Below, in pieces: positions 3,271 to 20,011 of a DNA stretch of 20,011 nucleotides (the stretch's first letter is position 1; each line of letters opens with the position of its first letter). Origin of the DNA: a virus; the IMG/VR virus record IMGVR_UViG_3300013137_001346, positions 1-20,011 of that record, one strand, 5' to 3'. A program made the position numbers and the translations under genes. The notes beneath the pieces are model-generated. The model searched no databases. It worked only from the letters and a program-made list of their open reading frames with translations, and was not told the origin of the DNA.

Positions 3271-4614
3271 ATGGATAGATTATGGCTTGCAAGTAATATG
3301 CAGGATGAAGTTGCCAATATTAAACCAATTTGGGATATTTTCAAGGATATAGTTGATGGTTGGTTGGTTGTCGATTCGGGTTCAACTGATGGAACTCAAG
3401 ATATTTTGAATGAGTTAGTTGGGGATAGATTAAAACTTGTTCAGTCTGACATGATTAAAGTTAATGGGTATGGGTTTTCTCGAACCAAACTTGTGGAATT
3501 GTCTGATGCTGAATGGGTTTTGATTTTTGATGGCGATGAAAGAATGTTGGAAGAGGATGTTGATAAAATACATCCTCTTATCAACAAATTTAATTATTGT
3601 GACATGATTTGGTTGCCCCGTTGTCATTACCAAAATTGGGAAATGACTAAGGTGGAATACGGTAGTATGGACAAAGTTGGTTCTGATTGGAAAGAAGCAA
3701 TCCGCATTAATCCTGATTTTCAGCCAAGGTTAATTCATCGTAAAATGGTTGATGGTAAGAGTAAGGTTCAGTTCTTTCGTAGGGTGCATGAAAGGATAGA
3801 GGGCATTACCCAGGATTATTCTTCCCGTTACAATCCGGTTATTCGTCATTTTGGATGGATGAAAACTGATGAAAGGAAAAAGCAGATAGCATCTTTGTGT
3901 GATGTACTCTATCATATGGATTTGGATAAAAAAGAATATGTTGATACCTATGAATTGGAAAATGTTGCTGGTACGGCAAATGTTTTAAATCCTGAGTATC
4001 TTAGGGTTATGCAAGAAGTAGGAATACAGAATTTTTGTGAACGTGCTGAATTTTGGGGGAAGAATCATTCGGCAGTTCAGCAAGGGGATAGTATTCCTTG
4101 TCCGTTTGAAAAGTATATTGATTATTTTTATGGTAAGAAAGTCCTTGAAATTGGGCCGGGGGAAGCAAGGCAGTATAAATTTGTGAAAGATATTTGTTAT
4201 GAATATTCTATTGCTGATATTTCTCAGGAAGTTTTAGATCATCCTATTTATTCATCTGGTGGCAGGTTTTCAAAATGTGAAGGTAGATATTTATTAAAAG
4301 ATTATTCTGAATTTTATTCACGATTTGAGGTTATTCATTTCTGGTATGTGCTTCATCATATTCTTCCTTCAGAACTTCCTCAGTTTGTCGAATTTCTGAA
4401 TAATAATCTTGCTGAAGGTGGGCATATTCTTTTTAACACTCCGTATCTTGGTTATGATTCCGGCAATTATAAAGAGAATGGAATTATGACTACTCCTTAT
4501 ACTATTGATTTTGTTCGGGAAGTATTTTCAAAGTATTTCACGTTTGATGTTGAGGATTATTCACAGAATCGAAATAGCAATGGCTATGTGGTTATTGCTT
4601 CGAGAAAGGAGTAA
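3271..4614 (+). CDS. GT2 glycosyltransferase fused to class I SAM methyltransferase
   Basis: 447 aa, two domains. The N-terminal half (about 1-250) is a GT-A family 2 glycosyltransferase, which moves a sugar from a nucleotide-sugar donor: VVDSGSTDGT (33-42), the metal-binding FDGDE (86-90) and a later RVHERIEG (171-178), all typical of GT2 enzymes. The C-terminal part (about 275-447) has the SAM-binding glycine motif VLEIGPGEA (291-299), an acidic SIADIS (313-318) as motif II and the hydrophobic HFWYVLHHIL (356-365) as motif IV. GGGAG lies 7 bases before the ATG. It is the first of four cargo genes between portal and protease; the next gene starts 2 bases after its stop. The acceptor and sugar cannot be inferred. 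A role in glycosylating virion proteins or host surface polymers is hypothesis. Domain calls are firm; the joint function is not. Confidence 0.86.
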   Translation: MDRLWLASNMQDEVANIKPIWDIFKDIVDGWLVVDSGSTDGTQDILNELVGDRLKLVQSDMIKVNGYGFSRTKLVELSDAEWVLIFDGDERMLEEDVDKIHPLINKFNYCDMIWLPRCHYQNWEMTKVEYGSMDKVGSDWKEAIRINPDFQPRLIHRKMVDGKSKVQFFRRVHERIEGITQDYSSRYNPVIRHFGWMKTDERKKQIASLCDVLYHMDLDKKEYVDTYELENVAGTANVLNPEYLRVMQEVGIQNFCERAEFWGKNHSAVQQGDSIPCPFEKYIDYFYGKKVLEIGPGEARQYKFVKDICYEYSIADISQEVLDHPIYSSGGRFSKCEGRYLLKDYSEFYSRFEVIHFWYVLHHILPSELPQFVEFLNNNLAEGGHILFNTPYLGYDSGNYKENGIMTTPYTIDFVREVFSKYFTFDVEDYSQNRNSNGYVVIASRKE

Positions 4615-4616
4615 TT

Positions 4617-5201
4617 ATGGGACTTCTTTCTTTTTTTGATATTGAGGCAAATATAAAACATTATAGCTTAAAAGTATTTTGTGAGTCTGGAACGGGTGAG
4701 GGTGTTTCTTTATCTCATGCTTTGAATTTTCCTTTTGAAGAATTTTATAGTGTGGAAATATGCCCCGATTTGTTTAAGTTGGTTTGTAATAAATTTTGGA
4801 ATAAAGAAAATGTTCATATTTATACTGGAAACAGTTTTGATTTTTTATCTTCTTTTTGTCCAAAGGTTCATGTTCCCATAATGTTTTGGCTTGATGCTCA
4901 TTTGCCGGGGGTTGATTATGGTTATTCCCTGCAAAAGCACACCCCTGATGTTGTTATGCCTTTGGAAAAAGAACTTGAAGCAATTGCAAAATTCAGACCA
5001 GAAGGTAAAGATGTAATTCTTATTGATGATCTTCGTTTTTATTCTACTGAAAATTTTGAAAGTGGAATTTTGTCTGAGGAATGGAGATTACCAAATTATG
5101 ATTTTGTTTATGATTATTTTGATAATACCCACAATATAAAAAAATATCTCAACAATGAAGGATATTTGAAACTCACGCCAAAGGAGAAATACAATGGATA
5201 A
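4617..5201 (+). CDS. TylF-like (macrocin O-methyltransferase-like) SAM methyltransferase
   Basis: 194 aa single-domain Rossmann protein. FCESGTGEG (21-29) matches a SAM-binding loop, SVEI (45-48) the acidic strand-2 end, TGNSFDFL (70-77) the motif III area, FWLDAH (90-95) motif IV and VILIDDLR (133-140) a late acidic pair. The D-A-H plus D-D arrangement resembles the metal-dependent sugar O-methyltransferases of the TylF/macrocin type, so methylation of a sugar hydroxyl is a reasonable guess, not shown. AAAGGAG overlaps the previous stop region, and the gene overlaps the start of the radical SAM gene by 8 bases, so translation of the cargo genes is probably coupled. Strongly AT-rich codon use, like the other cargo genes. 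An FkbM-like or other class I methyltransferase is the alternative. Confidence 0.72.
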   Translation: MGLLSFFDIEANIKHYSLKVFCESGTGEGVSLSHALNFPFEEFYSVEICPDLFKLVCNKFWNKENVHIYTGNSFDFLSSFCPKVHVPIMFWLDAHLPGVDYGYSLQKHTPDVVMPLEKELEAIAKFRPEGKDVILIDDLRFYSTENFESGILSEEWRLPNYDFVYDYFDNTHNIKKYLNNEGYLKLTPKEKYNG

Positions 5202-6135
5202 GGTGAACACTTTTACATCAACAGGTATAAAATTTCTAAGGCAAGCTTTGTTTGATAGCGATATTATTTTTTTTCCAAAGCCCCTTTCTTTACAGGTTGC
5301 TTTGACTGAAAGATGTAATTTAAGATGTTCGTTTTGTTCTGTTGTAAATCGTAAAAGAAAGTATGAGTGGGACATTAATGAATTAATATCAGCCACAACT
5401 AAATTTAAAAAATTAGGCATTAAGACAGTAGAAATAACAGGAGGTGGGGAACCTACGGTTTATCCTGATTTTGAATGGTACGTTGAATTTTGTCATGATC
5501 TTGGTTTAGAAGTTGGGTTAATTACCAATGGACTTTTGCTTCATAAAATATCCAGTGATGTTTTAAATCGTTTACGTTGGTTGCGTATTTCGATGAATTG
5601 TCTGGATTATGTAAATAACATTGAGATTCCAAAAATACGGGGCACTTTGGGGTTCTCGTATGTATTCGGGCCAGATTCAAGTTTTAAAAATCTTTTGCTA
5701 GTAAAGAGTTTAGCAATAGAACATAAAGCCGCTTACGTGCGGGTAGTTCCAAATTGTCTTTCTACCGAAGAGGAATTAAAGGAACAACACAAAAAACTTT
5801 CTGATTTTGTAGAACAATTGGGACATCCTGTTTTTTACCAGCAAAAAGAATACGGGAAATCTAAAATTTGTAGATGGTGTCTATATAAGCCATTTCTATA
5901 TTGTGATGAATTGGTATATCCTTGTTCTTCAATAGCTATTAATCCCGATGCAGATAAAGCATTTGAATCAAGTTATGCAATTTGTCATTGGAAAGATGTT
6001 GAAGAAAAAATGTATAAGGCAGACCCAGATACTTTAATTGATACTTCAAAATGTAATCGTTGTGTGTTTCAAGAACAGAATGATTTAATTCAATCCTTGG
6101 TTGAGCCACTTATTCTTCATCCAAATTTTATATAG
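5194..6135 (+). CDS. Radical SAM enzyme with SPASM-like C-terminal cysteines
   Basis: 313 aa. C41-x3-C45-x2-C48 within TERCNLRCSFC is the [4Fe-4S] site that reductively cleaves SAM to a 5'-deoxyadenosyl radical. ITGGGEPTVYP (81-91) is the 'GGE' SAM-binding motif and LITNGLLL (109-116) the following conserved strand. The C-terminal third carries seven more cysteines (C226, C229, C237, C244, C264, C287, C290), a spacing that suggests a SPASM/twitch-type domain holding one or more auxiliary clusters. Such domains occur in enzymes that modify peptides (sactipeptide, anSME-like) and sugars. The substrate is not visible, and no precursor peptide gene is seen beside it. ATG sits inside the end of the previous gene after AAAGGAGAAA. 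The next cargo gene starts 8 bases after its stop. The radical SAM identity is secure, the subclass less so. Confidence 0.86.
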   Translation: MDKVNTFTSTGIKFLRQALFDSDIIFFPKPLSLQVALTERCNLRCSFCSVVNRKRKYEWDINELISATTKFKKLGIKTVEITGGGEPTVYPDFEWYVEFCHDLGLEVGLITNGLLLHKISSDVLNRLRWLRISMNCLDYVNNIEIPKIRGTLGFSYVFGPDSSFKNLLLVKSLAIEHKAAYVRVVPNCLSTEEELKEQHKKLSDFVEQLGHPVFYQQKEYGKSKICRWCLYKPFLYCDELVYPCSSIAINPDADKAFESSYAICHWKDVEEKMYKADPDTLIDTSKCNRCVFQEQNDLIQSLVEPLILHPNFI

Positions 6136-6143
6136 GAGTCAAT

Positions 6144-6812
6144 ATGAAAAACAATAGTGAATTATACAATGAAGATTATTTTGAGCATGGTATTGAAAAG
6201 GGAATTTCTTGTTATTCAAATTACAGGTGGATTCCTGAACTGACTATCCCAATGGCAATGGCAATGATTGATTGGCTTCATTTGAGTCGGGATGCTCAAA
6301 TTCTTGATTATGGTTGTAGTCGTGGGTATCTGGTCAAGGCTTTAAGGTTGCTGCATCGTCAGGCATGGGGGTGTGATATTTCAAAATATGCCATAGATAA
6401 TTGTGATAAAGATGTTGAGCAATTTTGTTTTCAATGTTATTGTGATAAATCAAATAGTGAAATTATATCATTTAATTTTAATTTTGATTGGTGCATATCA
6501 AAAGATGTATTTGAGCATATAAGTGTAGAGGATTTACCTGAAGTTGTAAGTTTAATTGGGCAAAGATGCCGAAAAATGTTTGCTGTAATTCCTTTGGGGG
6601 ATGGAAATACATTTAATGTTCCCGCATATAATAAAGATATTACACATATTACAGCGCAAACTAGCGATTGGTGGGCTGATATTTTTGTAAAAAATGGTTG
6701 GGAAGTTGATAAATTTTATTATTCTATGAAAGGAATAAAGGATAATTGGGCTGATTATGGGTTTGGTAATGGGTTTTTTATTTTACAAAACAATAATGTT
6801 TTGTTTAAATAG
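6144..6812 (+). CDS. Class I SAM-dependent methyltransferase
   Basis: 222 aa. ILDYGCSRGYLVKAL (53-67) is a textbook SAM-binding motif I, GCDISKYAID (76-85) motif II, and KDVFEHI (120-126) motif IV with the usual hydrophobic-acidic pattern. The later DITHIT (165-170) and WWADIFVKNGWEV (176-188) resemble the Methyltransf_11/23-like group often found in sugar and surface-polysaccharide loci. GGAG lies shortly before the ATG. It is the last cargo gene: the DNA after it turns into a very AT-rich non-coding gap. Composition is extreme here (9 G or C among the 60 bases 6421-6480). The target is unknown; in this context a glycan or glycoprotein made by neighbouring enzymes is a candidate, while DNA or small molecules are not excluded. 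Confidence 0.86.
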   Translation: MKNNSELYNEDYFEHGIEKGISCYSNYRWIPELTIPMAMAMIDWLHLSRDAQILDYGCSRGYLVKALRLLHRQAWGCDISKYAIDNCDKDVEQFCFQCYCDKSNSEIISFNFNFDWCISKDVFEHISVEDLPEVVSLIGQRCRKMFAVIPLGDGNTFNVPAYNKDITHITAQTSDWWADIFVKNGWEVDKFYYSMKGIKDNWADYGFGNGFFILQNNNVLFK

Positions 6813-11945: not shown

Positions 11946-14006
11946 ATGGCAAAGATTTTATTTTATGGTGACAACCCTCTGAGCAATACTGCAAATGCCT
12001 ACATGAACACGACAATAATTAGAAGTCTTGAAAAAGCAGGACATGAAATTTTGGTTCTTGGTTTTTCTCCAATTGATTTAAGAAATGTTTTTTCTGAAAG
12101 TGGCTTGAAGTCCAAAATAATTCCAATTACATCTGATTATTCTGACCCTTTTGGGGAACGTGAACTTCTTCATTACATTAATGATCTTGATTTTGATTTC
12201 TTAGTCACAAATAATGATTTGTGGCGATTGAATAATTTAGCAAGGAAATTTTCTTTAATCAAAGAACAGAAAAGCATTAAGTGGATTGGGGTGTTTCCGT
12301 GTGATTGTGATACAGTAAAACCTGATTGGGTTTTTATCATGAATCAGATGGATTTGCCCATTGTATATAGTAAACATGGTTTTGATTTGTATTGTCAGAA
12401 GGTTCCAAATCTTAGATATTGGAAACCTATTGTTGATGCAAGTAAATTCAAACCTTTGGAAAATAAGTTTGAGTTAAAAACAAAGATTTTTAATATTCCT
12501 TCTGATTCTTTTCTTATTGGTGTGGTAGCAAAAAATCAATTTAGAAAAGACTTGGTTCGTTCTCTAGAAGTATTCAAGGCTTTTCAAATTGTTCATCCAA
12601 ACAGCTATATTTATTTTCATACTAATGTAAAATCGGATTTGTGCGGGGATATTTCTGCTGTAGTAAAGCAAATGGATATTCCAAATGTGATTTTACGGAA
12701 TCAGAATATAGCTTATCTTACTCAGGAAAGACTCTGTTCTATGTACAATTCTTTTGATTGTCTTTTGGTGACGAGTTTAGGAGAAGGATTGTGTTATCCA
12801 ATTATTGAAGCGCAACTGTGCAATGTTCCTGTGATTGGTGCAGCAAATACAGCGATAACTGAATTGATTGATGAAGGTAAGGGGTTTGTATGTTCTCTAT
12901 CTTTGGATACTGCACCTTTACCTATTACTGTTGATGGAATTCAAGTAACAGAACAGAGAAAACGGGTTGATGTTCAAGATTGCCTTGGCCAACTTGAGAT
13001 TGTTTATAAGGGTTCATTTTTTAGTGAGTCAAATGAAAGCCATTATTGTTGTGAAATGCTAAGAGGCATTAAAGGTAGTGCAAGGGAAAATGCTTTAACC
13101 TACACAAAAAACAGTGATTCTATTTCTAGGTTAATGTCCCGCATTTTTGATAAGGTTCAATCAAAACGATCTGGAAAACCAAAAGAAAGATTATTGTTTT
13201 GCCAGTATGCTTCTGCCGGGGATGTTCTTATCACTACCGGAATTTTAAAAGGCATGAAGGAAAAGTATGGTCTTGATATAGACTATATGACTCAGCCGAT
13301 GTATTTTGATATTCTCCAAGGCAATTCTGATATTGGAAAAATAATTGAATGGGATATGAAGGTTTCCAAATTGTATAAAGCTTATGCTTACCCCCATAAG
13401 GTAATTCGTACCGGTAATTGGGGAACCAATGATATTTCTCTTTATGATGTCTATGCTCAACTTTGTGAAGTAGAGTATGGACAGATGTTTATTGATACTG
13501 TTGAACCAATAGGAAAGAATGGTGAGTATTTTGATTGGGGGGATTATATTACTGTTCATAATAAGGGAGGTCATCATTATAGATATTATCCCTATATGAA
13601 TGGGGTGATTGATATTTTGAGTGTTAAGTACCCAAATTTAAAATTTATGCAGGTAGGGGCTTCTGATGACCCTAGACTTGAAAAAGCCATTGATGTTCGC
13701 GGGGTGAGTTTTAGGGAATCGGCTTATATAATTAAAAATGCCAAAGTGCATATTGGTATAGATAGTTTCCCTGCACATTGTGCTGCTGCTGTAGGTCAGA
13801 AGCAAGTTTGCTTGTATGGTTGTGGGGCAAAACGTGTCATTCAACCTCGTGGCAGAGTAATAAATATTGAACCTGATTATGTAAAAGTATGTCCTATTCT
13901 TGGCCCTTGTTGGGGGAATTATCAAGCTTGTGGGGGAAATTGTATTCGTTCTATTCACCCCGAAAGAGTTGCAAAGGCTGCTATTGACCTAATTGAAAGC
14001 AATTAA
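11946..14006 (+). CDS. Two-domain glycosyltransferase, GT4-like plus GT9-like
   Basis: 686 aa in one uninterrupted frame. Residues 1 to about 400 are a GT-B retaining glycosyltransferase of the GT4 type: a first Rossmann half (KILFYGDNPLSNTANAYM), VVAKNQFRKD (193-202) at the donor-domain start, and SLGEGLCYPIIEA (277-289), the EX7E-type motif with E280 and E288. Residues about 415-686 resemble GT9 heptosyltransferases: GDVLITTGILKGMKEKYG (425-442) and VHIGIDSFPAHCAAAVGQ (601-618), the conserved 'D-S/T..-H-xAA..G' donor motif. The GT9 half is shorter than a full heptosyltransferase (about 330 aa). The end is Cys-rich (C649, C655, C662, C666). AAAGGA precedes the ATG. Lying between stopper and tail-completion genes, it is a cargo insertion. 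Two transfers of different sugars in one chain is the likely role; the acceptor is unknown. Confidence 0.86.
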   Translation: MAKILFYGDNPLSNTANAYMNTTIIRSLEKAGHEILVLGFSPIDLRNVFSESGLKSKIIPITSDYSDPFGERELLHYINDLDFDFLVTNNDLWRLNNLARKFSLIKEQKSIKWIGVFPCDCDTVKPDWVFIMNQMDLPIVYSKHGFDLYCQKVPNLRYWKPIVDASKFKPLENKFELKTKIFNIPSDSFLIGVVAKNQFRKDLVRSLEVFKAFQIVHPNSYIYFHTNVKSDLCGDISAVVKQMDIPNVILRNQNIAYLTQERLCSMYNSFDCLLVTSLGEGLCYPIIEAQLCNVPVIGAANTAITELIDEGKGFVCSLSLDTAPLPITVDGIQVTEQRKRVDVQDCLGQLEIVYKGSFFSESNESHYCCEMLRGIKGSARENALTYTKNSDSISRLMSRIFDKVQSKRSGKPKERLLFCQYASAGDVLITTGILKGMKEKYGLDIDYMTQPMYFDILQGNSDIGKIIEWDMKVSKLYKAYAYPHKVIRTGNWGTNDISLYDVYAQLCEVEYGQMFIDTVEPIGKNGEYFDWGDYITVHNKGGHHYRYYPYMNGVIDILSVKYPNLKFMQVGASDDPRLEKAIDVRGVSFRESAYIIKNAKVHIGIDSFPAHCAAAVGQKQVCLYGCGAKRVIQPRGRVINIEPDYVKVCPILGPCWGNYQACGGNCIRSIHPERVAKAAIDLIESN

Positions 14007-15284: not shown

Positions 15285-15881
15285 ATGGCTATTACACAGA
15301 CCGGCCCTTTAACGAAAGACCCTGCTTTTTTAGCCATTGGTTTATATCAGGTCAGAGTTGCGGCTTCGGCTACACAAACTGCTGCCCTGATTTCCAGAAC
15401 TGATGGTTGTCTGAGTGGGGAAGCAAGTATGGGGGCTATGGCACAGACCAAGATTGCTCTTGAAAAGGAGTATTTCACGCATGAGTCGGGTTTCCCGCTT
15501 TTGGAAGATTCACAACTTCCTATTCGGGAAAAGGCCATGTTGGAATTTGCCTTTGAAGAGATCGAAGGTCGGAACATGGTTCTCGCATCCGGTGGCGACC
15601 CCGCTGATGGTAGTGGGGAAATTAAGCTTGGGGCAATGGCACAACCTGAGTACATGCGAGTTGAGGCATGGTATACCTATGCGAATAATGCTCGGCGTAT
15701 GATTATTGTGTTCCCTCGTGCTCAAATTGTCTCTAATCTGGAACTTGAAAACCAGAAGGAAGAGGCAGCAAATTCCCCCGTTACTGTTCGTGCTACTCGT
15801 GCAGACAGTGGCATAACTGGTGGTCATGCCAATTGGGACAATATGCCCCTTGGCAGGATTTATTGGGAAGCAGTAACATAA
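15285..15881 (+). CDS. Major tail tube protein, probable
   Basis: 198 aa. AAGGAGAT lies 7 bases before the ATG. Short strands dominate: LAIGLYQVRVAAS (16-28), MAQTKIALEKEYFTHESGFP (52-71, broken by a turn), and RRMIIVFPRAQIVSNLELENQ (136-156), the last resembling the tube-protein pattern in which a strand 'i.fpka.i...l.l' is followed by a helix and final strand. GAMAQ occurs twice (50-54 and 115-119). GC-rich codon use (32 G or C among bases 15541-15600), unlike the cargo, matches an abundant virion protein. A GC-rich hairpin and the chaperone genes follow, the standard order. No sheath gene precedes it, which points to a non-contractile tail. Confidence 0.77.
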   Translation: MAITQTGPLTKDPAFLAIGLYQVRVAASATQTAALISRTDGCLSGEASMGAMAQTKIALEKEYFTHESGFPLLEDSQLPIREKAMLEFAFEEIEGRNMVLASGGDPADGSGEIKLGAMAQPEYMRVEAWYTYANNARRMIIVFPRAQIVSNLELENQKEEAANSPVTVRATRADSGITGGHANWDNMPLGRIYWEAVT

Positions 15882-15954: not shown

Positions 15955-16347
15955 ATGGAACTTAAACAAATAGCTCCTGAAACACGGATATTGAAAATTG
16001 GTAAAAAGGTTTTGGAAGATAAAGAAATTCTTCCTTTGTCATTTATTGACCAGAAGAAAATTCTTTTGATGGTGGTAAATGTTTTTGTTAATTTGCTACC
16101 GAAGTGGCAGGAGGGTGCTTCACCAACTGAAGTGGTAGCTGATATTAAGAAAATTCTTGAGGACAATATTGAAATGATAGTTGGTCTTGTCTATGATGGG
16201 GATAAAGATGAATTTCTGTCAAAAATGACTAACACACAATGTATTGACCTCATTGATAATATATGGGAGGTAAATTATCAACTCCCTTTGGGGAAAGGCA
16301 CGATGATATATCAGAAGATTCTTCAAACTCTGAAGATGTCATCGTAG
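15955..16347 (+). CDS. Tail assembly chaperone, short form (gpG-like)
   Basis: 130 aa. Read in the zero frame, this is the lambda gpG-like chaperone that coats the tape measure while the tube grows. The sequence is helical (IDQKKILLMVVNVFVNLLPKW, then VVADIKKILEDNIEMIVGLVY) with no enzyme motif. Lambda-like G proteins are alike only in position and helical content. TGGAAAG precedes the ATG. Near its 3' end lie two slippery heptamers that allow ribosomes to shift into the -1 frame and make the longer product. It sits in the invariant place between tube and tape measure genes. The role is inferred from gene order plus the frameshift architecture, which together are close to diagnostic. Confidence 0.82.
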   Translation: MELKQIAPETRILKIGKKVLEDKEILPLSFIDQKKILLMVVNVFVNLLPKWQEGASPTEVVADIKKILEDNIEMIVGLVYDGDKDEFLSKMTNTQCIDLIDNIWEVNYQLPLGKGTMIYQKILQTLKMSS

Positions 16348-16712
16348 AAACCATAACTGCGATATGTGAGTGGTATGGGTATAACCTTAAAACTATATGT
16401 GGGCATTTTAAAGATGGGGGTTTAACACGAGATCAATTAGCTAGTCTCTACGAAACAGGGATTAAGCGATATTTGCGGGATAAGCAAATCTGGTTTAATC
16501 TCTTAGGGGTTAAAGTTGATTTGGGTGTCTCTCCGAAATCAACTAAGAATTCTGCCAAATCTGCTAAAGGAACTGACAGCATTCTAACCAAGTTCAAACC
16601 GTCTGAACTGAAGTCAATGTCAGACACGGAGAAGGAAACCCTTTCGGAGCAACAATACCAAGAACATAGAAGGTTGATTTCTATGCTTGGGAGTAAGGAT
16701 ATAGGGGTTTAA
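15955..16712 (+). CDS. Tail assembly chaperone, -1 frameshift fusion (gpGT-like)
   Basis: Predicted 252 aa product: codons to GGG at 16291-16293, then a -1 slip reading GAA from 16293 in the second frame to the stop at 16712 (139 residues). The extension begins GERHDDISEDSSNSEDV, an acidic linker, then EWYGYNLKTICGHFKDGGLTRDQ, and a Ser/Lys-rich tail. The second frame has no ribosome site of its own: its only early ATG (16263) lies inside the upstream gene without a Shine-Dalgarno. The stem at 16300-16345 would stimulate the slip. In lambda the T domain of gpGT recruits the tube protein to the tape measure; the same use is inferred here. Fraction of shifting cannot be read from sequence. Confidence 0.8.
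16284..16293 (+). other. Programmed -1 frameshift site, overlapping double heptamer
   Basis: In the zero frame the codons are CTC CCT TTG GGG AAA. Both C CCT TTG (16284-16290) and T TTG GGG (16287-16293) fit X XXY YYZ exactly, so slippage can start on either pair. The -1 frame stays open to 16712. A lambda-type G GGA AAG string is also present but is in the wrong phase. Confidence 0.78.
16300..16345 (+). other. Candidate frameshift-stimulating stem
   Basis: ACGATGA (16300-16306) pairs with TCATCGT (16339-16345), and inside it TCTTCA (16320-16325) pairs with TGAAGA (16331-16336) around AACTC. The outer stem starts 6 bases after the slippery site, in the 5-9 base range typical of stimulators. 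The inner part leaves an asymmetric loop, so strength is uncertain. Confidence 0.55.
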
Positions 16713-16714
16713 CC

Positions 16715-19700
16715 GTGGAACAAAAACAGATGGAACTTGGGGTTGTATTTGCTGCTGAAGTCAGTAAAAATTTACAAACTTCTACAGATAAACTTCTTGC
16801 CAAGCTAAAAAAAATTGAACTCCAATTAAAAAATGGGATTTCTTCTTCTTTTTCTAAATTTAATACCTCTGCAACAGAAGCTACTAAAGGTGTATCTAGG
16901 GCTTTAATTTCTGTTGGAACAGACTTTTCTCGAACTTCAGGGTTGGCGCAGCAGCTTTCCAATAATATGCTGACCCTTGGTACATCTGCCGATACCACTT
17001 CTAAAAAATTAAGATCAGTAACAAATGTTTCCGGTGGTTTAACTACGAAGTTAAAGCAGATGGGGGATGCCGGTAAACATGCAGGTTCAATGTCTGCCGG
17101 TCTTGAAGGCTTTATTGAATTTACCGGTAGGTTTTTTGCTGTATGGAGAATCTATTGGGCAGTTTTAGGGGTATTGAAAGATGTAACAGGTGTAGCAAAG
17201 GAATTTGCTTCTCAAATGGGGCAGGTTCAGGGTGTTACTGCTGCTTCTGCTAGAGAAATGGTTGGATTAAAAGAAGCTGCGGGGGAAATAGGAACTACCA
17301 TGCTCATGTCTCTTGGTGAAGCTGCTAAGGGAATGAGAATTTTGTCTCAGGCAGGATTATCTGCAAAAGAAGTTCAAGAGTCCGTAAATGGTGTTGCAAA
17401 ATTGGCACAGGCTACTGGTGCTTCTTTTGATGAAACTGCGCGACTTTCTACTACAGTAATGAAAGTTTGGAATATTCAAGCATCGGAAATGACACGAATT
17501 TCAGATGTCATGGCAAATGCTGTTCTTGATTCTAAACTTGAATTATCAGACCTTAATACAATATTCAATTATCTAGCCCCTTCTGCAAAGATGGCAGGGT
17601 ATTCTCTTGAACAAACTGCTGCTGCTGTTTCTGTTATGGCAAATGCCGGTATGAAAGCTTCTACTATTGGTACAGGGCTTTCTACTATGCTTTCTGAAAT
17701 TATAAAAGAGTCTGATGGTTTTAGGGAATCATTGAATAAGGTTGGATTAAAGTTTTCTGATTTAAAAGATGCTAGTGGTCAGTTAAAACCAATACCTGTA
17801 ATTATAGATACTTTATCAAAAGCAGGTCTTAAACTTGATACAATTTTTTCTGGTTTACAACTTCGTTCCGCTCGTATGCTGACCACTATGGTCGATCAGG
17901 GTGGTGGGGCATTTGAGCGTATGGAAAGAAGAATGAATATAGCAGGAACAACTGCAAGGATGTTTGCTGCATCTATGAATCCACCTTTGGTAAAGCTTCA
18001 TTTGTTTTACAATCAGATTATAACCCAAGGGGCTTTGGCTTTTGAAAAGTTTTCGGTAAATCTTTTATATGGTATTGATTTAATAAAGGCTTTTGGGGAT
18101 TCTATTGGTTTTTTAAGTGTCATTCTTGTTGCTAAATTGATACCGCCATTAATTGCTTTAGGTACTAATATTATACAGAATGTACTTTATCAGATTACTT
18201 TATTTACAATGGCTTGTAGAACTGCAAGTGCAGCTACAGTAATAATGGGGATTGGAATTGGCACGATAGCGGGTTGGGCTGCTGCTGCTGTAGCAGCTAT
18301 AGCGGGGTTAATCTATGCTTGGAAACGATGGGGACAAACTGCTGATGATACAGGTGCTAAACTTGCAGAACAACAAGGTATAGCAATTCGTGCAGCAAAT
18401 GAAATTGAAGATTTAGCCATAGCATACAAAGCAGGGGTTACTTCTGAAAAAGAATTAGTTAAGAAAACAATTGAAATAAATAAGTTATTGAGGGATTTGA
18501 ATATTAAAGAAAGACTTTCAGTTGAAGATATTAAAACTGATGGGTTTAAGCCTTTATTGGATGCTTTGGATTTAGTGGTTTTAAAAACATCTTTAATTTC
18601 TCCTAAAATGAAAGAAGCAGTATCTACTATATCTGAGAATTTGAAAAAAATTGAAGAACTTAAAAAAACAAAAGAGAAATTAGAAAAGGAACAACTAACA
18701 GTAGGTGCTACTGGTGGGGGTAATCTTGAACCACAAATAAGCAGGATAACTTCTGAGATTGAAAAATTAGAAGAAGGTCTGGGCAAGGCAAAAGCTGAAA
18801 TACAAGATTTTGCTTCCATTGCTTCTTTGTCTGGTTGGGATGCTGATAATTTTGCCCAAAAGCTAGAAAAAATTAATTTAAACTTAGACCCAACAAGTCT
18901 GAATGTTTACGCTCAAGGGTTTAAAGATTTAGCAGCAAGCATGAAAGAAGCTACTGCTGCGTCTAAAGAAGTCTCTTACCCTCCCCCCGCAACAGATTAT
19001 GAAAATAAATTGTACAGACAGGAAATGACGGTTATTCGATTAAAAGAGGGATATGATAAATTAAATAATGCAAAAAATAAAAATATTCCGGCACTTATTC
19101 AACAACAAAAACTTTTAAATGCTGCGGAACAAGAGGTTTTAAAAACTAAAAATAGTAAAAAATTTGATGATGCTAAATTGAATGATAGAGGAAAAATTCT
19201 TTTAGAATCATCGAAAGATTTAATTGAATTGGAAATATCAGGTAAATCAAAAGTTCTTGGTTTAGAAAAAGAACAAGGAGATTACGAAGATCGAATTTCC
19301 AAACTCAAGAAAGAAAATGCTACTCTTACATCTCAAGAGAAATTGGACAGTGAAAGTATTCTTGGTGCTAGGATTGCTCTTGAGGAAAAACTTAGGGATT
19401 TAAGAAAAGGCAATGAGGCAAAGGGCATTGTTGGTATCGAAGATTTAAAACGACAAAGGGATTCCCTGATTGGTAAAACCGATGAAAAGAGTTTGGAGAA
19501 ATATAATGAACTTCAAACTGCTTTAAATGCGGCTTTGCGTGAAGAAAATAAGGAACAGAAAAATCTTTCTGCCCATAATATTCAGTTTAATGAAGCTTCT
19601 ATGCAACGGAAATTAGATTTTAATATCAAGAATCTCGAACTCGCAAAAATGGAAGCAGGAATTACTATTTCTTCACATGACCAGATTATAGCAAAGAAAA

Positions 19701-20011
19701 AGGAATTAATTGTTGCTGAACAAGAATGGAACAATGCTAGAATTACAGCTATTCAACGGGAACAGCAAGGTGCTGATGTAGCTACTCAAGTTTATCGGGA
19801 TAGAGAAAATGAAATTCAAAAATTAAAAACAAAAAACGCCGAACTTACTGGTTCTATTGGTAAATTAAAAACGGAATGGGAACTTGCTGGTCAGCAAATT
19901 GGTTCCTCTATTGGGAACAATGTTGGTTCTGTTTTTAATGATTTAATTGAGGGTTCCAAATCTGTTTCTGAAGCTATTGGGGATATGGCAAAAAGTATTA
20001 TTGCCGATATT
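16715..20011 (+). CDS. Tape measure protein, 3'-truncated by window edge
   Basis: At least 1099 residues, open to the window end. GTG 16715 is preceded by ATAGGGG at 7 bases; ATG 16730 is the alternative. It sets tail length and carries DNA-entry functions. After a helical start (1-130), the region about 165-330 (KEFASQMGQVQGVT, MRILSQAGLSAKEV, GYSLEQTAAAVSVMANAGM, STIGTGLSTMLSE) matches the PhageMin_Tail/TP901 core family. Hydrophobic segments at about 462-482 and 505-537 (GIGIGTIAGWAAAAVAAIAGL) look membrane-active. From about 560 to the end it is Lys/Glu/Gln-rich coiled coil, and the last visible residues (IGDMAKSIIADI) resemble tape measure C-terminal helices. The tail is therefore long, and the missing end should include the C-terminal processing or tip region. 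Confidence 0.94.
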   Translation, partial: MEQKQMELGVVFAAEVSKNLQTSTDKLLAKLKKIELQLKNGISSSFSKFNTSATEATKGVSRALISVGTDFSRTSGLAQQLSNNMLTLGTSADTTSKKLRSVTNVSGGLTTKLKQMGDAGKHAGSMSAGLEGFIEFTGRFFAVWRIYWAVLGVLKDVTGVAKEFASQMGQVQGVTAASAREMVGLKEAAGEIGTTMLMSLGEAAKGMRILSQAGLSAKEVQESVNGVAKLAQATGASFDETARLSTTVMKVWNIQASEMTRISDVMANAVLDSKLELSDLNTIFNYLAPSAKMAGYSLEQTAAAVSVMANAGMKASTIGTGLSTMLSEIIKESDGFRESLNKVGLKFSDLKDASGQLKPIPVIIDTLSKAGLKLDTIFSGLQLRSARMLTTMVDQGGGAFERMERRMNIAGTTARMFAASMNPPLVKLHLFYNQIITQGALAFEKFSVNLLYGIDLIKAFGDSIGFLSVILVAKLIPPLIALGTNIIQNVLYQITLFTMACRTASAATVIMGIGIGTIAGWAAAAVAAIAGLIYAWKRWGQTADDTGAKLAEQQGIAIRAANEIEDLAIAYKAGVTSEKELVKKTIEINKLLRDLNIKERLSVEDIKTDGFKPLLDALDLVVLKTSLISPKMKEAVSTISENLKKIEELKKTKEKLEKEQLTVGATGGGNLEPQISRITSEIEKLEEGLGKAKAEIQDFASIASLSGWDADNFAQKLEKINLNLDPTSLNVYAQGFKDLAASMKEATAASKEVSYPPPATDYENKLYRQEMTVIRLKEGYDKLNNAKNKNIPALIQQQKLLNAAEQEVLKTKNSKKFDDAKLNDRGKILLESSKDLIELEISGKSKVLGLEKEQGDYEDRISKLKKENATLTSQEKLDSESILGARIALEEKLRDLRKGNEAKGIVGIEDLKRQRDSLIGKTDEKSLEKYNELQTALNAALREENKEQKNLSAHNIQFNEASMQRKLDFNIKNLELAKMEAGITISSHDQIIAKKKELIVAEQEWNNARITAIQREQQGADVATQVYRDRENEIQKLKTKNAELTGSIGKLKTEWELAGQQIGSSIGNNVGSVFNDLIEGSKSVSEAIGDMAKSIIADI

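Follow-up and report, generated by a model that had tools for sequence, protein, structure and literature searches.

Does the pair of overlapping slippery heptamers found near the end of a putative tail chaperone gene of an uncultured virus direct a programmed ribosomal frameshift, and, if so, which of the two is used? Bacterial viruses are well known to obtain a tail-building helper protein in two forms by letting some ribosomes slip by −1 at a fixed spot. The DNA analyzed here (the window) is a 20,011-base IMG/VR virus record, in which two overlapping open reading frames, the second in the −1 frame, lie between the major tail protein and tape measure genes. A −1 frameshift in tail chaperone genes, fusing G to GT and accompanied by a 3' stem, is strongly supported by sequence comparison. 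It would be programmed, of the lambda G/GT kind, in an uncultured tailed phage, with C CCT TTG very probably the main slip site and T TTG GGG a minor one. The following features are involved:

15285-15881, plus strand: major tail protein gene, directly upstream of G, assigned by synteny and conservation
15955-16347, plus strand: gene G, tail assembly chaperone of 130 aa in the zero frame, assigned by its match to phrog_1442
16260-16712, plus strand: GT part in the −1 frame, predicted to be made as a G-GT fusion of about 252 aa, assigned by conserved motifs and by the −1 frame that it occupies in every one of the 91 complete overlaps
16265-16270, plus strand: internal Shine-Dalgarno-like GGGAGG, 13 nt before C CCT TTG, with an anti-SD pairing energy of −11.5 kcal/mol
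16284-16290, plus strand: first slippery heptamer, C CCT TTG, the likeliest main site, matched by C CCT TTN at the corresponding codons of six relatives (L002, L097, L062, L161, L084, and L089)
16287-16293, plus strand: second heptamer T TTG GGG, in phase, accessory at best, with T TTG GGN elsewhere only in L062
16300-16345, plus strand: 3' stem of 10 bp with arms ACGATGATAT (16300-16309) and ATGTCATCGT (16336-16345) and an inner 5-bp stem, z −3.1 to −3.4
16715-20011, plus strand: tape measure protein gene, running off the window, assigned by Pfam PF10145 (PhageMin_Tail, E 4.4e-37)

The earlier note on this DNA had placed the site in tail chaperone genes, and this placement is borne out by the phrog_1442 match of G and by the PF10145 tape measure gene downstream of GT. 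The match of the window's G to phrog_1442 (annotated as tail assembly chaperone) has an E-value of 0.0011, which is weak taken by itself; the same family was matched by 10 of 20 tested members of the G family, with a best value of 1.9e-7. For the GT domain no named family was found; it has the motifs GG[LV]T..Q and F.DP..Y, conserved across loci. The major tail protein had no family match above threshold.

The structural block of the window also carries genes of other kinds. Between the portal and S49 protease genes, at 3271-6812, there are a fusion of glycosyltransferase 2 and methyltransferase, a radical SAM protein, and a methyltransferase, and the placing of such glycosyltransferase and radical SAM genes inside a phage structural block is unusual. 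At 11946-14006 the block encodes a 686-aa protein, the first half of which matches glycosyl transferases group 1 and the second half glycosyltransferase family 9.

In the frame of G, the slip region reads CAA CTC CCT TTG GGG AAA GGC ACG, and the 130 codons of the gene contain no XXXYYYZ heptamer besides C CCT TTG and T TTG GGG. They share positions 16287-16290, so that the four-base overlap and common phase described previously hold in the window sequence. The −1 frame opens at 16260 and runs to a stop at 16712, giving an overlap of 29 codons, in which a random codon string would contain an in-frame heptamer with a probability of about 0.19 and an overlapping pair with a probability of about 0.018. 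Another five overlapping heptamer pairs are present in other parts of the window's genes, and the heptamers alone are weak evidence. The longest run of one base at the site is 4 nt or less, which makes transcriptional slippage unlikely there. A lambda-type GGGAAAG at 16291-16297 was also considered and set aside, its phase being wrong for entry into the GT frame.

Positional conservation in relatives is what raises the candidate site above chance. With the major tail protein as anchor, two relatives were found first, and scans with alignments based on these two gave 80 loci each; a profile of G then recovered 96 distinct G genes from IMG/VR. In five of these loci the contig ends within the GT frame, and they were left out of the overlap counts. 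GT lies in the −1 frame in each of the remaining 91 distinct loci with complete G/GT overlap, and 90 of them have an in-phase heptamer at the same place, just after a conserved E.N[YF] motif. The heptamer is A AAA AAN in 82 loci, C CCT TTN in seven (the window included), and G GGA AAA in one, with C CCT TTN sitting two codons upstream of the A AAA AAN position. L062, L084, and L097 have a −1 frame that opens only 3 nt before C CCT TTN. The sole complete overlap devoid of an XXXYYYZ heptamer is that of L196 (3127-3899), where the place reads ACA ATA AAA GTG. The earlier note had named relatives keeping neither heptamer nor stem as the observation that would tell against its reading; the frameshift stands up to this comparison, whereas the second heptamer is missing from most relatives.

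Other searches brought little. A DNA search and tblastn with the G, major tail, and portal proteins gave no usable relative in the phage collection (one insignificant match to G, E 4), where the matches to the tape measure protein were all distant; two scans of bacterial genomes found no relative, and single-protein scans with G and with GT likewise returned none. As for the seven C CCT TTN loci, a quick tree hinted at three independent origins of this heptamer, an idea that was dropped, as a clade joining L062 with L084, L161, and L089 has the higher likelihood (p-AU 0.82). Grouping all seven in a single clade is also compatible with the data (p-AU 0.51), and the seven loci therefore should not be counted as seven independent cases. 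The major tail proteins of the branch of L161, L084, L089, and L062 share a stretch of threonines at their end.

The second conserved element lies 3' of the heptamer. RNAalifold found no consensus structure in the aligned set, and the helix was therefore named and counted instead; Rfam gave no match above gathering. In the A AAA AAN relatives a ten-pair helix starts 7 nt after the heptamer and is formed in 88.5% of cells, a percentage taken over 55 loci; the aligned set had eleven more, most of them lacking the hairpin, and these had been excluded in that knowledge. Changes on both sides were observed at all ten pairs, with 51 double-change cells vs 18.5 in shuffles, and the covariation score was 0.376 vs 0.05-0.16 in slid controls. 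By comparison of the loci, then, the frame relation, the position and conservation of the heptamer, and the covarying 3' helix of the A AAA AAN relatives are demonstrated at the level of sequence.

The stem of the window occupies the place of this covarying hairpin. It begins 6 nt after T TTG GGG, as previously noted together with its nested inner stem, and 9 nt after C CCT TTG; its minimum free energy is −16.0 kcal/mol, and 1.8% of 50-nt stretches across the window fold as well. Its sequence is not shared by L002, L097, or any other close relative, and the nearest relatives, only 56-57% identical to the window in the major tail protein, are too distant for this particular stem to be judged by covariation. 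Three other C CCT TTN loci (L084, L161, and L089) have a helix of their own, 8-12 bp long, which starts 6-7 nt after the heptamer, has its 3' arm about 90 nt further on, and shows one compensatory change; L062 retains the ancestral helix arms GCCTCTTC/GAAGAGGC.

The third element, which the earlier note does not mention, lies upstream. Shine-Dalgarno-like sequences have been reported to stimulate frameshifting when located 6-17 nt before the slippery motif (PMC4066793), a rule narrowed here to six-base matches. Such a match within this range is present in all seven C CCT TTN loci, in two of the 83 other loci, and at 0.5% of the window's codons; under the published four-base rule the counts are 7/7 vs 23/83. 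The anti-SD pairing energies of the seven loci range from −9.0 to −11.5 kcal/mol, and comparison with synonymous recodings, a weak test, gave a combined p of about 0.03. The association with C CCT TTN may reflect one shared ancestry. Nevertheless, the Shine-Dalgarno-like element accompanying C CCT TTN is a more interesting feature than the doubling of the heptamer, within the limit set by common ancestry.

The occurrence of slippage, its efficiency, and the roles of the Shine-Dalgarno-like element and of each heptamer are what we infer from these patterns. Most ribosomes would read G through to its stop at 16345-16347. A minority would slip back by one base on C CCT TTG, aided by the downstream stem and probably also by pairing of GGGAGG with 16S rRNA, and translation would then go on in the −1 frame to yield G-GT. 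T TTG GGG would offer a second chance to slip one codon later, with the same product, and would probably contribute little.

The main alternative concerns the doubling itself. The earlier note proposed that the double heptamer raises or buffers the G:GT ratio, and in its strongest form this means that both heptamers are used about equally, the doubling having been selected to set or steady the ratio by giving two chances to make the same protein. The 6-nt spacing between T TTG GGG and the stem is indeed near the family spacing of 6-7 nt, and overlaps recur in the triple of L062 and in G GGC CCT / C CCT TTC of L161, so that three of the seven C CCT TTN loci have an overlapping neighbor vs 6 of the 68 heptamers that lie in frame in genes of the window (p 0.03, a post hoc value from related sequences). 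Against this, T TTG GGN occurs in only two of the seven loci (the window and L062), whereas the first heptamer is kept in all of them; over all slip sites overlapping heptamers number 6 of 90, which is no enrichment over the background of 6 of 68; and in E. coli GGN codons in the A site are on average poor shifters, slipping less readily than UUN and AAN (PMC4066793). The doubled heptamer is thus truly there in the window, yet most relatives do not conserve it, its proposed effect on the G:GT ratio is unsupported, and we consider equal use unlikely. A minor role for the overlapping second heptamer is possible.

A broader version would be that the site was rebuilt as a unit in the C CCT TTN branch, with the slip site moved two codons upstream of the ancestral A AAA AAN together with a Shine-Dalgarno-like element, a new 3' helix in part of the lineages, and consecutive chances to slip on overlapping heptamers (two in the window, three in L062, CCCTTTGGGAAAG), all jointly setting the G:GT ratio; we put this forward as a doubtful, speculative idea. 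The triple of L062 (3489-3501) consists of C CCT TTG, T TTG GGA, and G GGA AAG in phase, and the last of them, identical to the heptamer of lambda, is placed where sister loci carry A AAA AAN.

It is less probable still that slippage takes place mainly on T TTG GGG and that C CCT TTG is incidental. The distance of T TTG GGG from the stem is the canonical 6 nt, and its GGG codon would re-pair cognately in the A site; moreover, frameshifting in E. coli favors UUY in the A site and UUG does not rank with the better codons there, which counts against C CCT TTG (PMC4066793). What the sister loci L002, L097, L084, and L089 keep, however, is C CCT TTN rather than T TTN GGN. Some share of slippage on T TTG GGG is possible because the spacing to the stem is better there. 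The junction peptide is a poor arbiter between the heptamers. The earlier note assigned LPLGER to a slip on the second one, but tandem slippage on either would give this sequence, so that its detection by mass spectrometry would show the frameshift and not which heptamer was used; an LPFGER junction would come only from P-site slippage on C CCT TTG, and the product without a shift would read LPLGK.

Finally, it is highly improbable that there is no frameshift and that GT is translated alone, beginning at the ATG of 16263 or at some other internal codon: this ATG does stand at the head of the window's −1 frame with GGGAGG near, but the latter overlaps the ATG rather than preceding it, and 79 of the 90 loci, including L062, L084, L089, L097, and L161, have no ATG, GTG, or TTG in that frame either ahead of the heptamer or close to it.

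Slippage mainly on C CCT TTG, with the stem and the Shine-Dalgarno-like element as likely stimulators, can be compared with several known systems. What is new is that about 90 uncultured phages form a family with a clear predicted G/GT frameshift and a covarying stimulator. The family offers a natural comparison, in which the heptamer, the Shine-Dalgarno-like element, and the stem change while the product stays. The −1 programmed frameshift of the G/GT tail assembly chaperone of phage lambda has been described (PMC5009743); the order of genes (major tail protein, G, GT, tape measure), the −1 frame, and a heptamer near the end of G are common to lambda and the window. They differ in the heptamer itself (G GGA AAG in lambda, C CCT TTG here), in the upstream Shine-Dalgarno-like element and the downstream 10-bp stem of the window, and in that the tested major tail and G proteins of the family have no match in the phage collection. 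The E. coli dnaX and IS911 sites share with the window the arrangement of a 5' Shine-Dalgarno-like element in the 6-17 nt range (PMC4066793), a heptamer, and a 3' stem, but in other genes and on another heptamer. A CCC-UUU slip sequence is also present in the G/T chaperone pair of coliphage 9g, the frameshift there being placed at CCCUUUUUUU (PMC4276943); it was reported as a −2 shift, whereas GT of the window lies in the −1 frame.
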